DNA of 25,000 nt, from IMG/VR virus record IMGVR_UViG_3300013093_000257, positions 1-25,000 of that record, one strand, 5' to 3'. Positions 3,001 through 20,051 of the stretch are shown here, piece by piece. Under the pieces are notes generated by a model. That model was given only the letters and a program-made list of their open reading frames with translations, searched no databases and was not told the origin of the DNA. The translations under genes were made by a program, and so were the position numbers. Numbering within the stretch: the first letter of the stretch is position 1; the number at the start of each line of letters is the position of its first letter. The stretch is from a virus.

Positions 3001-5445
3001 ATTCCCGTATTCTCTACAAGCGAATCTATAACATTTACTAATCCTAATGCAGAAGTATTTGCGCTTCCTTTTGTTCCTGCGGTAGGTACAACTATTACTG
3101 TATATGTAAGTACAGGTTCTGTTGTTAATGCTACAAGAATTGATGATCCTAACTATGGAACAACTGGTACAATAACTAACGCTAATGCTACTATGAAGAG
3201 CTTTAACGGTGTAGTTGGAATTAACACAATTAGTATTGGTCAAATAGTTGGTCCTAACGACATAATTATATTCCGTCCTTGGACAAGCGATGGAACAACT
3301 ATTCCCAACGATGTAGATTTAGATACATTAGTTTACGGTGGAACTATTACCCCAGGTTATATTAGTGAATCAGATGAGTATACTGATATTAATTTAGATG
3401 GCGATGCATTCATTAGCTCATCTAATAGCCACGGTCCTGAAGAAAATCTTCCTGGCAATATTTTAGAAAGTATTGGAATTAGCATTTACGAACGTCCGCT
3501 AGCAGTCAATCCATTGATAGTTAATAAAAAGTATTTCACAGACGGAACTGTTAGAACATTTGACCTTGGCATCACTCCGCCTAATGTAGATAGTGTATTT
3601 GTGTTGTGGAATGATACGCCGTTATATAATACTGTCGATTTTACGATTGACTATGTTAACAATACACTGTCAACAAACAACACATTGACCAATGGTTTCC
3701 TATCGTTGACTACCTTGGGAGTTGGCGGAACAGAATTATTAGAAAACGACACAGTGGTTGTAACTAATACTGCGACAACTCAATATGCTTTTGCATCGGC
3801 TTTCTCAGAAGTTCAAAGTGCTTATGTAACACTTAATGGTGTATCAATTGCTCCGCCAAACTATACATTGGTAAGTAACACAGATACATATGGTGTTGGT
3901 AGAGCAACTATCAGTTTGAACACAACAACACATGTAAATGATGTTATTCAGGCTTGGTTGTTTGCGGCTCCATACAAAGCATTTAGTCAGGTAGTTGATC
4001 AAATCACTACTGCAAGTTCTGGAGTTAGTGTGTTTACATTAAAACAACCTCCGGGCAATCTTGGTCCATTCCATGGACAGGTAATTGTAGAATATAACGG
4101 TAAAAAATTATTACCGCCTGACACTTTATATTTTGTAGTTGAAAATAATCAATTGACCTACCCATTAAATATTCACTTCCCATATCCTGCAGGAGTTAAC
4201 GCAAGTCAAGTTGAAGTATATATTAATGGTGTACTAGCAACATTGGGATATGATTATGAATTAATCCAAACTGAAAACCTAGTAGTGTTTAGTCAGCGTT
4301 CAGTTAAAAATGGTGATGCTATTGCGATTGTTAATCTAATCAATAACGATTATGCGATTGAGAATAATCAATTAGTTTTAACTTCTCAAGTTGATACATC
4401 ATCTGGTACAAATTTACTTCGAGTAGTTACATTTACTAACGGTGATACTTCGAGCATTAGAACGGAAAGATTCATTGGTAACTTGTCTAGACGTTACCCA
4501 ATGAGTCGTCAGATGATTAATAGCAACTATGTTTGGGTAACTGTTAACGGAACTAGTTTAACACAAGATGTAGATTATCAAATTGATTCTGATCGTCAAA
4601 CTATTGTATTAGGTACAAATTTTGTATTAGGACCTGCTGACAATGTGGTAATATTAAGCATTGCAGATGTTGCTGTACAAGAAACTACCGGTTATAGAAT
4701 TTTCAACGACAGTTTAGGTAGAACAAGTTATAAACGTTTAAGCGGAAGAAATACCACAGCCCTAGCCCAAACATTAAATTCTACAGATACTACTATTACG
4801 GTAGTAGATGCATCAGTATTAGGTACTCCAAATATCAGTCGAAATGTGCCTGGAGTTATACTGATTTTCGGTGAAAGAATCGAGTATTACCAGGTAAATG
4901 GTAACGTTTTGTCACAAATTAAGCGTGGAACTTTTGCCACTGGTGTTAGAGCATCATATCCTGTAGGAACTACAGTTATTGATCAAAGCCCGGTTCAAAA
5001 TATTCCTGTATTGGAGTATGCTCAAACTCAGCGGTTCTTAGTAACTGATACTAGCACAGTTGAATATCCGTTAACTGATATTACTTTTACTACATCAACT
5101 ACTGCAACGACTCAGGTACAGGTATTTTATCAAGGAACTATGCTAACTAAGACAACAAGCACTGTTCATAATCCCGAAGTTGCATACGATTCTGGAGAAA
5201 TCAATAGTGCAGGAATTTCTAGTGATACTATTGTACCTGCAGAATACTATATTGATCCTACAACATATAACCTAGTACTAAATTTTGCTCCACAACTTGG
5301 CGCAGAAATTAGAGTAATACGCAATCTAGGAACAGTATGGGGTAATGAATTAGTGTCAGAAGTTACAAGCAATTCTGAACAAGTTAACTTTTTATTAGAA
5401 AGGCCGGCCATTCTGCCAGATAAATATTATTATGGACAACAATGA
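1..5445 (+). CDS. Large repeat-built virion structural protein, 5' end outside window
   Basis: The reading frame is open from base 1, so the gene begins left of the window; the first internal ATG at 154 is not a credible start, because the preceding 51 codons (reading W-W-D-L and E-W-M-R) are protein-like. About 1,814 residues are visible. The protein is rich in Thr, Asn, Val, Tyr and Gly with few charges, typical of beta-structured phage fibre or baseplate proteins. It carries four copies of a G-x-G-Y-x(3)-P motif in two pairs, and about six later units of the pattern V-x-V-x(3)-G-x-x-L-x(4)-D-Y-x-I followed by a G-D-x-I-x-V-like strand. Near 4700-5010 lies a segment with SGRNTT, ITVVDAS and GERIEYY, which I associate from memory with marine T4-like structural proteins. 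The next gene overlaps its last 14 bases. The likely role is a peripheral baseplate or tail-fibre-network protein; the exact part is unknown. No signal peptide or membrane segment is visible in the part seen. Confidence 0.88.
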   Translation, partial: TNANWIDEHVGKLWWDLSTVKFTWYEQGELEFRKNNWGGVFPGCTIDVYEWMRSTYLPSQWAGLADTTDGLVLGMSGQPKYPDNSVLSVKQIFNSTTQQLTNVYYYWVKNTVVVPSNTTRRISAYNVASLIANPLTNGIQYISFLSDNAVSLANCKPSLSSSDIHLAVEMDTINNSIPKHTEWLLLQEGDINSLPGNALTQKLLDSLLGHDTQGNQVPDPTLPNRLKYGVEIRPRQSMFVDRLGAIKILVEYVNSILSQNLITDNYDLTLLKSKEEIPNIALGTYDILVEDLTARDLLSPRYVSQATLACTLKYGKISTISIVNPGFGYKAAPTVTILGTGTGAEIGLTIDASGAVVSAKIISAGSGYTTEPTFVVRPFTVIVQSDSSVNNKWSIYQWNYQTLTWGYPVHVQSFDTTNYWSYADWVSPKFNPNQEFLITLDAPYELDVLTNVPAGNYIKIRNNGNGQAIVLKKLSTVDQPGSYNLEYDLVYQQNGTIQLSNSLWNYTSGTSGFDNIAAYDQTGFDSTPDQEASNIFNAINNNIFVGDLQIYLNLSWFKLVRYAMTEQKFIDWAFKTSFISVTNNAGQLNQPATYKLDDTSYYESFIAEAKPYRTNVREWTDAYTSTEVSMSMTTDFDVPSYYNTSTHQFTPVSFGSSLLTQQPYRSWFDNYTYYIKSIDVFNGGSGYQYPPQVIIEPTNGDIVTTTATAVAYIALGAVTQIVVTNPGAGYTSNPRIILAGGGPTTLTTATAGAKLANDTTRATLTHIKFDRVAGYNEITTSTAYDSFVGDGSKHVFPLTWYPSTNPADFTVLIAGILQLRSDYTINYSTTKFKGYTKNYATITLNSVPTFGQLIEIDYVKNVELYHAVDRIQHFYQPTSGMPGNTATLLMNGLEYPGVTIDTLPFQASLGWDTAPFDQSSWDDYVSETGVYIASSPVVRANPAFANGNYVFSVSATPGIRNIQIGATATFTNTTTIYTVNSSTANALYRGYWDIGITGTNIPVFSTSESITFTNPNAEVFALPFVPAVGTTITVYVSTGSVVNATRIDDPNYGTTGTITNANATMKSFNGVVGINTISIGQIVGPNDIIIFRPWTSDGTTIPNDVDLDTLVYGGTITPGYISESDEYTDINLDGDAFISSSNSHGPEENLPGNILESIGISIYERPLAVNPLIVNKKYFTDGTVRTFDLGITPPNVDSVFVLWNDTPLYNTVDFTIDYVNNTLSTNNTLTNGFLSLTTLGVGGTELLENDTVVVTNTATTQYAFASAFSEVQSAYVTLNGVSIAPPNYTLVSNTDTYGVGRATISLNTTTHVNDVIQAWLFAAPYKAFSQVVDQITTASSGVSVFTLKQPPGNLGPFHGQVIVEYNGKKLLPPDTLYFVVENNQLTYPLNIHFPYPAGVNASQVEVYINGVLATLGYDYELIQTENLVVFSQRSVKNGDAIAIVNLINNDYAIENNQLVLTSQVDTSSGTNLLRVVTFTNGDTSSIRTERFIGNLSRRYPMSRQMINSNYVWVTVNGTSLTQDVDYQIDSDRQTIVLGTNFVLGPADNVVILSIADVAVQETTGYRIFNDSLGRTSYKRLSGRNTTALAQTLNSTDTTITVVDASVLGTPNISRNVPGVILIFGERIEYYQVNGNVLSQIKRGTFATGVRASYPVGTTVIDQSPVQNIPVLEYAQTQRFLVTDTSTVEYPLTDITFTTSTTATTQVQVFYQGTMLTKTTSTVHNPEVAYDSGEINSAGISSDTIVPAEYYIDPTTYNLVLNFAPQLGAEIRVIRNLGTVWGNELVSEVTSNSEQVNFLLERPAILPDKYYYGQQ
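955..1131 (+). repeat. First pair of G-x-G-Y protein repeats
   Basis: Inside the large structural protein, two units of about 35-40 residues each contain hydrophobic-rich strand, then NPGFGY or SAGSGY, then a Pro three or four residues later and another strand (AAPTVTI, TEPTFVV). A second pair lies near 2023-2226. The repeat is clear at protein level only; the DNA copies have diverged. Such units probably form small beta-modules. Confidence 0.6.
2023..2226 (+). repeat. Second pair of G-x-G-Y protein repeats
   Basis: Two further units with GGSGYQYPPQVII and NPGAGYTSNPRIIL, matching the pair near 955-1131 in spacing and in the Gly-x-Gly-Tyr and Pro positions. The pairs sit on either side of a non-repeat region of roughly 300 residues. 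Confidence 0.6.
2377..5340 (+). repeat. Region of degenerate beta-domain repeats with N-G-x-x-L and D-Y-x-I strands
   Basis: Protein-level repeats inside the large structural gene. Recognisable units lie at about 2377-2595 (IAGILQLRSDYTINY), 3550-3780 (WNDTPLYNTVDFTIDY), 3784-3990 (LNGVSIAPPNYTL), 4177-4345 (INGVLATLGYDYELI), 4526-4680 (VNGTSLTQDVDYQID) and 5056-5340 (YQGTMLTKTT, then a PAEYYID strand). Each unit is followed by an I-x-L strand and a short hydrophobic strand. Boundaries are approximate. I infer tandem immunoglobulin-like or jelly-roll-like sandwiches along a fibre, but the fold is not proven. Confidence 0.5.
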
Positions 5446-14644: not shown

Positions 14645-14926
14645 TTATTTGTGCAGATATGGGCATGCTAATGATAACATAGAAAGTTCTTTTGGTTCTT
14701 CTACCCCAATCTCATATGCTGTTATTAATTTATTACTGTGAGGATCCACAGCCTGTATCTTTTGAATACAATAACGGCTATCTAAATTGGTATAAATCCA
14801 ATTGTCTATTTCTCGTATCTTATCAATTTCCTTAATTTTCATCTTAGCAAAATTTGGGGGTATACGATCTAGTTTCCTCATATTGAGGACGTTCAATGCG
14901 TTTACCCTACCTTTTGATAAAGACAT
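14645..14926 (-). CDS. Conserved phage protein of unknown function (93 aa)
   Basis: The start at 14926 is preceded by a modest AGTAGGT site. The N-terminus is basic (KGR, RKL). A motif RIPPNFAKMKI and then IDNWIYTNLDSRYCI suggests a small folded protein, and I recall similar stretches in T4-like marine phages with no assigned role. Three cysteines are present but not in a metal-binding spacing. The promoter-like octamer TATAAATA lies 13 bases upstream of the ATG, overlapping the end of the VWA gene, and may give late expression of this gene and the two after it. Function unknown. Confidence 0.82.
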   Translation of the reverse strand: MSLSKGRVNALNVLNMRKLDRIPPNFAKMKIKEIDKIREIDNWIYTNLDSRYCIQKIQAVDPHSNKLITAYEIGVEEPKELSMLSLACPYLHK

Positions 14927-14938
14927 AATATACCTACT

Positions 14939-16198
14939 TTATTTATAATAGGCAGTCTGGCCGAATGGAGCAATTATGGATTCATTGCCGTGAATAACAA
15001 ACAAACTTTCGCAATAATTTTCATCTCCCCAGCTACCGCAAGGATACCCGTCAGTGAACATGATAAAGCGTTTTGGCTCAATACCTTCTTCTTTCATAAA
15101 TTCAAAGTTGGCATCAAAATCAGTACCACCACCACCTTTACATTCATAAGTCAAAATCTCATCTGCATTGTCGCCTGTAAAACGAGCATAGTTATAAATG
15201 CCGGTATCAAAGCACCACAAGTCTAGTTTAAAGTCTACATATTCGTCCATAATGCCTTTAACTTCACTTAGGAAATCTTTGGCCATTTTGTCACTAATAG
15301 AACCTGACATATCAATTGCTACTGATACGTCAATGGTTTCTTCATTTAACATTCCTGGTAGCACAGCGCCACACATTTGACATTTGCGATTAGGACGAGT
15401 AAAACTAAAATTGCTCTTTAGAATACTTTGAATATTCATACGCAACAGTTGACGCCAATCCATTTTAGGTTCAGTAAAGTCTTTAATCAAACGTGCAACA
15501 CCTGCAGGCACTTTGCCTGCACCTGCGGCCTGAGCCGCACTAACCATTGCCTCTTTGATTTCGTCTCGGATCTTTTTCTTTTCTTCAGCAGTAAGTTTTG
15601 GACGACCTTTACCACTGCCGTCAACGTCACCACCTTCTCCGCCACCTTCGTTTTCGTCATCGCCGTCTAAGTGTTCGTCGAGCAATTCTCCTAGTGAATT
15701 GATATCGATCTTAATTGCTTTCTTTTCAATTTCTTCGTAAATTTCCTCGTAACTCCAACCTCTGTATTTGTTGTCTTGGAAAATTTTAATAGAACGTGGC
15801 ACTTCGCCGATGCGTTCATCTACAAGAATTTGATTAACTGCGTAGTCAGCCGCAATGTTACTAAGTTGAGGATCACGGAAATCTCTACGACCCATGTGAT
15901 CAAATACGTTATGCAAAACTTCGTGTGCAAAACCAAATTCACATTCTTTTGGATTTAGTCCATCGACGAATTCTAAATTGTAGTAAAAACGGCGACCGTC
16001 TGTTGCTAACGTACCACACCAGTCACTGGCTTCGATCAGTTGAAGCCGAGTAGCCATGTTACCAAAAAACGGATGACGCAACAGCAGGCCTACACGAGCT
16101 GTAATTAATTTGTCAAGGACAAGGTCTTTCTCTCGTTGAGTAAACTCACGTTGGGTTTTTACTTTTTTAGTCTTTTCTTGTTTCATTACTGCTGACAT
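14939..16198 (-). CDS. VWA domain / putative metallopeptidase-like protein (419 aa), MoxR partner
   Basis: The start at 16198 has AAGGA seven bases upstream. The N-terminal half matches the putative metallopeptidase domain of the DUF2201 type: a helix with RHPFFGNMATRL, then HEVLH at residues 92-96 (HExxH zinc motif), H101, and NIAADYAVNQIL. A low-complexity acidic Glu/Asp/Gly linker spans about 174-195. The C-terminal part is a VWA-like domain with MIDAS residues D296-x-S298-x-S300, T359 in GGGGTDF and D383 in FTDGYP. A C-x-x-C pair (273, 276) lies between them. In bacteria such proteins work with MoxR AAA+ ATPases, and a MoxR gene lies just upstream here. The pair probably forms a metal-dependent chaperone or remodelling complex; protease activity is only inferred from HExxH. 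A perfect sigma70 promoter precedes it. Confidence 0.9.
   Translation of the reverse strand: MSAVMKQEKTKKVKTQREFTQREKDLVLDKLITARVGLLLRHPFFGNMATRLQLIEASDWCGTLATDGRRFYYNLEFVDGLNPKECEFGFAHEVLHNVFDHMGRRDFRDPQLSNIAADYAVNQILVDERIGEVPRSIKIFQDNKYRGWSYEEIYEEIEKKAIKIDINSLGELLDEHLDGDDENEGGGEGGDVDGSGKGRPKLTAEEKKKIRDEIKEAMVSAAQAAGAGKVPAGVARLIKDFTEPKMDWRQLLRMNIQSILKSNFSFTRPNRKCQMCGAVLPGMLNEETIDVSVAIDMSGSISDKMAKDFLSEVKGIMDEYVDFKLDLWCFDTGIYNYARFTGDNADEILTYECKGGGGTDFDANFEFMKEEGIEPKRFIMFTDGYPCGSWGDENYCESLFVIHGNESIIAPFGQTAYYK
14940..14947 (-). promoter_or_regulatory. Possible T4-type late promoter octamer TATAAATA
   Basis: An exact match to the T4 late consensus lies on the - strand 13 bases before the 93-aa gene. 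Transcription would start about six bases downstream, leaving a very short leader that still includes most of the ribosome binding site. The match also encodes the last Tyr-Lys-stop codons of the VWA gene, so chance is a real alternative. Confidence 0.4.
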
Positions 16199-18021: not shown

Positions 18022-18306
18022 TTATACTAGCTTTTCTCCAGTAGTAAGTTTGTACACGGAGAAGTCCTTACAGTTGAATAGTTTGTTTAATTTTTCTGCT
18101 AAATTGATAGCATGACCGGAATTTGAAAAACTAACCTTTTTATATTTGGGCCCAATTTCTTGAGCCAACATGCTAGACGTTTTCAGATTAACGGGCTTAT
18201 CTTTATAAAAAACTGCCCAGATGGCATCTGCTTCTAAAACTTGTTCAGTTTTATAATTTTTCTTGTTTGTTATTTCTAACAACACGGTTGGTTTAGGTCT
18301 AGACAC
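18022..18306 (-). CDS. Conserved phage protein of unknown function (94 aa), GTG start
   Basis: The start codon is GTG at 18306; no in-frame ATG is available until residue 45. The only ribosome binding site is GGAG ten bases upstream, inside a hairpin loop. The product begins SRPKPTVLLEITN and includes AIWAVFYKDKPVNLKT and KYKKVSFSNSGHAINLAEKLN. The pattern resembles small alpha/beta proteins of T4-like environmental phages that have no assigned function. Expression is probably controlled: a T4-type late promoter octamer overlaps the 5' arm of the leader hairpin. It is followed without a gap by the 136-aa gene, so both may share the control. Confidence 0.83.
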   Translation of the reverse strand: MSRPKPTVLLEITNKKNYKTEQVLEADAIWAVFYKDKPVNLKTSSMLAQEIGPKYKKVSFSNSGHAINLAEKLNKLFNCKDFSVYKLTTGEKLV

Positions 18307-18307
18307 G

Positions 18308-18334
18308 ATATGCGTACTCCAAATATACGCATAT
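18308..18334 (-). promoter_or_regulatory. Leader hairpin presenting the ribosome binding site of the 94-aa gene
   Basis: A perfect 9-bp inverted repeat (ATATGCGTA and TACGCATAT on the - strand) encloses a 9-base loop TATTTGGAG. The GGAG ribosome binding site ends exactly at the loop-stem junction, and the GTG start codon lies one base after the stem. When folded, the spacer between binding site and start codon is double-stranded, which should hinder initiation. This is read directly from the sequence; the effect on translation is inferred. Confidence 0.7.
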
Positions 18335-18341
18335 ATTTATA
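18334..18341 (-). promoter_or_regulatory. T4-type late promoter octamer TATAAATA
   Basis: An exact TATAAATA on the - strand lies in the intergenic space before the 94-aa gene. The expected start, about six bases on, falls inside the 5' arm of the leader hairpin. The preceding TGT also makes an extended -10 for sigma70 (TG-T-TATAAA), with no good -35 box, so a host promoter is the alternative reading. Confidence 0.6.
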
Positions 18342-19064: not shown

Positions 19065-20051
19065 TTATGCCTCATATCTTGCGTTTAACGGATCAGAATA
19101 ACTTTGAACCTGTTCTACTACTTTAACAAGATCGTAGGAGTTAGCAAACTTCATTAACCTAATTCCAACTTGCGCTATGTTTTTATTCTTACCTAGTTCG
19201 TTTGCAATAGTTTCGGCAATTAATACTTTAATTTCGTCGGGCTGTGCTGTAAGATCGCACAACAGTTTATTACGATTATAATCGTCTAATACACGATGTT
19301 CAACCCCTTCGTGATCAGTCCAACGCTGTAACATCATGTTGTTCCAATTGTACCCCTTGGAGTTTCGATCTGCGAACGCTTCTCTAAGTCCCACTTTTTT
19401 CTTAGTGCCTTTCTCTCTGACTCCGGGATAAGCAGAAAAGATGTTGTCTGACGTGTCTCCACGCATACACTTTTCGAAGAGGAGCCATTCTGGGTCTGGA
19501 GCAGGCTTGGCAACTTTGTTTTTTTTGTCAATAACATGTTTTCCCTTTTCATCAAAATAACCTTCGTGTGTAATAGTAACACCACTGACACCATTGTACT
19601 GTCGTACATTAGGTGCAATTAATTGTGCAAAGTCTCCATCTGTACTAATGATAACATGATCATCATTAGGATGTGCTTGAATAAAACCTGCTATCAAATC
19701 GTCAGCTTCTAACTGAGGATGTTGTAGAACTGTACAGTTTGTACGCTCATTTATAAAATCTTTGAATTGATCAAATGTTTCCCAGAAGATACGATCTTCC
19801 TCTTGCTCACGTGGACTTTGAGCCGCACGAGCATCAGATCGTTAACGCTTGTAAGGAGCATAGTGATCCTTACGCCAGCTACGACCTTCGAGTGCAAATA
19901 CAACATGAGTACCTTTAAAATCTTTCCATGCCTTCCTAACTGAATTAAGAATAACATGCAGGCTCATGCCTACCTTTTCATCAGCCTCGCCTCTTATAAC
20001 GTGTCTAGCACGAAAGAATGTATTTGCTGTATCTACTATAATATATGTCAT
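19065..20051 (-). pseudogene. T4 RNase H-like 5'-3' exonuclease (FEN family), interrupted by an in-frame TAA
   Basis: One frame runs from ATG 20051 to 19065 (about 328 codons, near the 305 residues of T4 RNase H) but has a TAA at 19844-19842, codon 70. Both sides belong to the same protein: D7 in IIVDTAN and RSWRKDHYAPYKR before the stop; LEADD (E115, D117, D118), STDGDF (D138, D140) and GDTSDNI (D199, D202) after it. These are the metal-binding acids of the FEN family, which removes RNA primers and 5' flaps at replication forks. In T4 the matching stretch is, from memory, YKKNRGKAR, so one residue is replaced by the stop. The second part has only a poor TTG start (19697) that would cut off LEADD. 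It could be a real nonsense mutation, read-through, or a sequencing or assembly error. ATG overlaps the previous stop (TAATG). Confidence 0.88.

Follow-up and report, generated by a model that had tools for sequence, protein, structure and literature searches.

A predicted T4-type early/late translation switch before an orphan gene of jumbo phages

The window analysed here comprises 25,000 nucleotides, positions 1 to 25,000 of the IMG/VR virus record IMGVR_UViG_3300013093_000257. On its - strand, a 94-aa gene with a GTG start codon (18306-18304) extends from 18306 to 18022. Its product belongs to an orphan family conserved in jumbo phages, with homologues at 80 loci of uncultured jumbo phages (84-99% identity) and others in the cultured phages PA5oct, Phosso, Atu_ph07 and SCTP-2. 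Searches of the protein against PHROG and Pfam returned no family. A structure model (pLDDT 87.7, pTM 0.67) had no significant match in the PDB, and the significant matches of a structure search on the viral side were uncharacterised proteins only. A 136-aa gene (18021-17611, - strand), to which Phosso and PA5oct have weak relatives at the corresponding position, begins directly after the 94-aa stop codon and, judged from adjacency only, may share its control. Upstream lies a 74-aa gene (18576-18352, - strand), the presumed source of read-through transcripts. Its stop codon is about 10 nt before the promoter octamer described below and no terminator-like site was found on the - strand from 19958 to 18306; thus, read-through into the 94-aa gene is expected.

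The neighbours of the 94-aa gene include genes for a MoxR-type AAA ATPase and a DUF2201/VWA protein, and the order of 94-aa gene, small gene and ATPase gene recurs in Phosso and SCTP-2. The gene at 14939-16198 (- strand) is labelled 'HNH endonuclease' by PHROG 1314; this label looks wrong, and Pfam identifies DUF2201 metallopeptidase and VWA-like domains in the predicted product. An exonuclease gene at 19065-20051 (- strand) is interrupted in the window, with ORFs of 69 aa and 210 aa over 987 nt. In the relatives L001 and L003 it is intact as a 328-aa ORF of equal length, and the interruption is either a premature stop or a sequence error.

Direct reading of the - strand places the T4-type late promoter octamer TATAAATA at 18341-18334, with its core TAAATA at 18339-18334. 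In T4 late promoters, transcription starts at the sixth base after TAAATA. The corresponding base here is a G at 18328 (the predicted +1), and the 5-nt spacer TATGC (18333-18329) upstream of it forms most of the 5' arm of a hairpin. This arm, ATATGCGTA (18334-18326), takes the last A of the octamer as its first base; the loop TATTTGGAG (18325-18317) carries the Shine-Dalgarno sequence GGAG at 18320-18317, and the 3' arm TACGCATAT (18316-18308) ends one base (C, 18307) before the start codon. A preliminary description of this DNA had reported an exact octamer, a perfect 9-bp inverted repeat, a GGAG inside the loop and a 3' arm one base short of the GTG, and each of these is present at the positions given. 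In RNA, the stem gains a tenth pair, a G-U.

By itself, the window sequence is no proof of a switch, since neither motif exceeds chance and the folding signal is weak. The octamer occurs twice in the window against 3.8 occurrences expected from shuffles, and three perfect 9-bp inverted repeats (loop lengths 3-12) were counted where 2.0 are expected. The window's read-through RNA folds no better than shuffled sequences (z -0.94, single sequence), and masking of the ribosome site, compared with upstream-shuffled controls, reached only p = 0.09 for the window alone. No match was obtained at the gathering threshold in an Rfam search of the window, nor in a DNA-DNA search of phage records with the region around the site. 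It is the comparative evidence that decides.

The nearest kin, G018, encodes a gp55-like late sigma factor (phrog_234 match, 3.8e-27), and phrog_234 also matched in nine of 12 large contigs and in all four cultured relatives. TAAATA is strongly enriched ahead of gene starts in these genomes, in a 354-kb relative with 78 of 223, against 5-16% for control hexamers. The second octamer of the window (14940-14947, - strand) lies 13 nt before a 93-aa gene (ATG at 14926) and is probably a late promoter as well, since the same arrangement recurs in the genome G002 (L095:14827).

Upstream of the 94-aa gene, TAAATA was present at all 80 close loci and at 79 of 80 distant ones (159/160 in total). The 80 close loci represent 49 distinct leaders, and in nearly all of these the stem abuts or enters the start codon and the sixth base after TAAATA is a G. 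The five bases before +1, on the other hand, exist in about 20 variants, nearly all of which are accompanied by a matching 3' arm. The stem averages 8.9 bp when each leader is folded with its own arms and 5.8 bp when arms are swapped between relatives. Pairing of the segment before +1 scored 321, while the maximum of 1000 permutations was 256. When double changes were counted as branches of the coding-sequence tree on which both sides had changed and the pair was kept, positions -5 to -1 had undergone 24 independent changes of this kind (null mean 2.3, maximum 8). A covariance-model count gave 35 double-changed cells against 15.9 and a score of 0.243 against 0.171 when shuffled (reached in 0/500), and it probably understates the pairing because the 3' arms are partly misregistered. 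In the same count, the -2 slide also gave a high value, with 75.8% of cells paired, which is ascribed to the arms being TA-rich and alternating. One close leader, L049, has a broken pair. The preliminary description had named arms that vary without keeping their pairing as grounds for abandoning its proposal; in the relatives the pairing is kept, which points to selection on compensatory changes as the force maintaining the helix.

These data bear on two other readings of the repeat. One is that an AT-rich leader came to hold both the octamer and a 9-bp repeat by chance. This agrees with the frequency of either motif in the window, and conservation and covariation over 49 distinct leaders leave it a practically negligible probability; a chance origin is refuted by the changes in the relatives. 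The other is that the repeat is a DNA operator, or an accessory element of the late promoter, bound by a dimeric protein. The repeat is indeed palindromic and adjoins the promoter. However, a DNA-binding protein needs conserved arm bases, and here some 20 arm sequences with compensating changes and a variable arm spacing are found; moreover, a repeat of this kind is lacking at most late promoters of these genomes. Such an operator is thus highly improbable.

The bases found to co-vary with the 3' arm precede the predicted late start, and the late transcript would therefore lack them. Selection on their pairing must then work through RNAs initiated at some point further upstream. The consequence for initiation was assessed by a masking test, in which the energy needed to open positions -15 to +3 is compared with that of controls shuffled in the upstream part only. 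Among close leaders, the median opening energy was 12.3 kcal/mol for read-through RNA, 3.7 kcal/mol for late RNA and 6.8 kcal/mol for upstream-shuffled RNA. Masking at p<=0.05 was seen in 84% of close leaders and 53% of distant ones (47% fail); for TAAATA-promoter genes of these genomes in general the figure was 8-24%. The late RNAs of L056 and L059 are still structured. As positive controls, the test recovered T4 genes e (16.8 vs 4.1 kcal/mol) and 49, and it also picked a T4 start at 45612, annotated as I-TevII in the T4 record; it thus detects known cases. Of the cultured relatives, Atu_ph07 passes and PA5oct, Phosso and SCTP-2 fail; with no significant hairpin in three of these four, this part of the proposal is weaker than first put.

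The leader of the 94-aa gene is very probably best explained as a lock on read-through RNA that is opened by late transcription. Early and middle transcripts arriving from upstream genes would carry both arms of the hairpin. With a stem at the start codon and the Shine-Dalgarno sequence in the loop, ribosomes would be unable to initiate on this RNA. In the late phase, RNA polymerase would be guided to TATAAATA by a gp55-type sigma factor, and transcription would begin within the 5' arm, near the G at 18328. The resulting message would keep GGAG and the 3' arm but lack most of the pairing bases, and would be translated. An early/late switch in the style of T4 had been suggested in the preliminary description, and conservation, covariation, the gp55-like sigma factor of the relatives and the T4 controls all argue for it. 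Inferred parts of this account are the precise point at which transcription starts, the block to translation and a need to keep the 94-aa protein off early in infection.

Two further roles of the hairpin may be weighed against this mechanism. Stem-loops near 5' ends can stabilise mRNA, and the hairpin might accordingly be a stabiliser or a processing site, through 5' protection or endonuclease cleavage, instead of a translational block. Such a role is very unlikely here: the late transcript, expected to be the abundant one, would be without the hairpin, and stabilisation or processing requires no placement against the start codon, which the stem has in nearly every close lineage. The hairpin might also be an RNA operator for a repressor protein, for instance the 94-aa protein acting on its own message, with the overlap of the promoter reflecting compactness. 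T4 gp32 and gp43 are translational repressors of this kind. RegA of T4 is another precedent (PMC3014915), and a segment, GTATATTTGGAG, is fairly conserved in many close leaders. However, the loop varies in sequence and length by lineage. GGAG, earlier placed in the loop as part of the proposed switch, occurs in most distinct close leaders (39/49) and is absent from the loop in a few lineages (e.g. L051, L056, L072). In distant lineages the stem lies elsewhere. In addition, self-repression late in infection would fail because the late transcript would not carry the operator. We consider an RNA operator unlikely.

The read-through lock has close parallels in T4. In read-through RNA of T4 gene e, a helix buries the ribosome site. 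The 5' strand of this helix coincides in part with a TATAAATA late promoter and is missing from late transcripts (PMC3014915). The 94-aa leader shares with e, the lysozyme gene, the same pattern of opening energies in read-through and late RNA. Unlike e, it precedes an orphan gene, occurs in jumbo phages and not in Tevenvirinae, and has kept its predicted lock across far more divergent lineages and in several architectures. Inhibitory RNA structures at the translation start have also been described for T4 soc, 49 and I-TevI and for Aeh1 mobE, and early and middle transcripts of I-TevI are said to go untranslated just as those of e do (PMC3014915). T4 49 passes the masking test, as the 94-aa leaders do at the family level, whereas soc, 49, I-TevI and mobE encode known proteins and the 94-aa gene is an orphan. 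In cyanophage S-PM2, the T4-type late promoter is NATAAATA (PMC2984593). Cyanophage late promoters share their consensus with the 94-aa promoter, but the latter overlaps a hairpin predicted to mask the ribosome binding site, and the related genomes also use TAAATA-N5-ATG.

A late promoter, a gp55-type sigma factor (in relatives), sequestration at the family level and compensatory changes, all features of a T4-type switch, appear together at the 94-aa leader as far as leaders and predicted folds can tell. What is new is that such a switch apparently precedes an orphan gene and occurs in phages only remotely related to T4; the comparative data behind it are unusually strong.

The early/late translation switch of T4 is known from a few genes of T4 itself and of its near relatives. 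Its probable occurrence, under demonstrable selection, before an orphan gene of very distant jumbo phages would make it a general and evolvable control device. It would also flag the 94-aa protein, like lysozyme, as something that the phage must not make early. Further, the G conserved at +1 and the leaderless register described below offer directly testable predictions on late transcription outside T4.

Across distant loci the form of the stem varies. The hairpin form of the window is kept in L202, L217 and L228. In L172-L175 and L225 (TATGTTTAATCT/AGATTAAACATA), TAAATA is found in the loop of a long stem, and in L179, L182, L187 and L190 an ATG follows TAAATA after 5 nt and is abutted by a hairpin. 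Over the whole family, then, the predicted late promoter is almost always present and the predicted hairpin is common, not universal.

The arrangement with a 5-nt spacer is widespread in related genomes. TAAATA exactly 11 nt before ATG was counted in 18, 11, 18, 8 and 9 genes of five related jumbo genomes (G002, G006, G007, G009 and G016; 64 genes together), against 0.03-0.23 expected; the reversed-motif control ATAAAT in this count is compromised by its overlap with the real octamer. In T4, no gene has TAAATA-N5-ATG. At starts of this type, position -1 is mostly a pyrimidine, and a Shine-Dalgarno sequence is hardly ever present. With T4 spacing, the A of their ATG would be the +1, and the genes probably give rise to leaderless late mRNAs. 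No description of leaderless late mRNAs for gp55-type late promoters was found in the literature searched. The window has one such site, at 5421-5434 (+ strand). Its orthologues have a spacing of 10-12 in 39 of 80 loci, and the others one of 20-32, mostly with an AGGA-like site. We consider it rather more probable than otherwise that the late promoter of these jumbo phages is used in two registers, one about 23-35 nt before the start codon with a Shine-Dalgarno sequence, the other 5 nt before an ATG whose A is +1, giving leaderless messages of dozens of genes. The lock of the 94-aa gene would have moved between the two registers, in L179, L182, L187 and L190 as a hairpin-abutted AUG that is blocked when internal and open when 5'-terminal.

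A variant of the 94-aa gene start was seen at L003:2977-3285 (+ strand), where the 5' arm contains an ATG in the gene's reading frame; a 102-aa form would be made from it, from read-through RNA only.

Masked leaders were also observed at other genes of the jumbo relatives. The GH19-type endolysin genes at L094:968-1597 (+ strand) and L119:11964-12584 (- strand) and in L247 have a late promoter and a ribosome site that is masked in the predicted read-through RNA, which parallels T4 lysozyme, although the stems differ. The wider endolysin relatives are mostly without TAAATA, and two of seven distinct TAAATA leaders among them are masked. Further masked leaders with a late promoter lie at L135:4787-5236 (+ strand), L120:14245-17997 (- strand), L153:9475-12927 (+ strand) and L131:9458-10006 (+ strand); the genes behind these four leaders encode a CsgF-like secreted protein, baseplate wedge proteins and an Fe/Mn superoxide dismutase.
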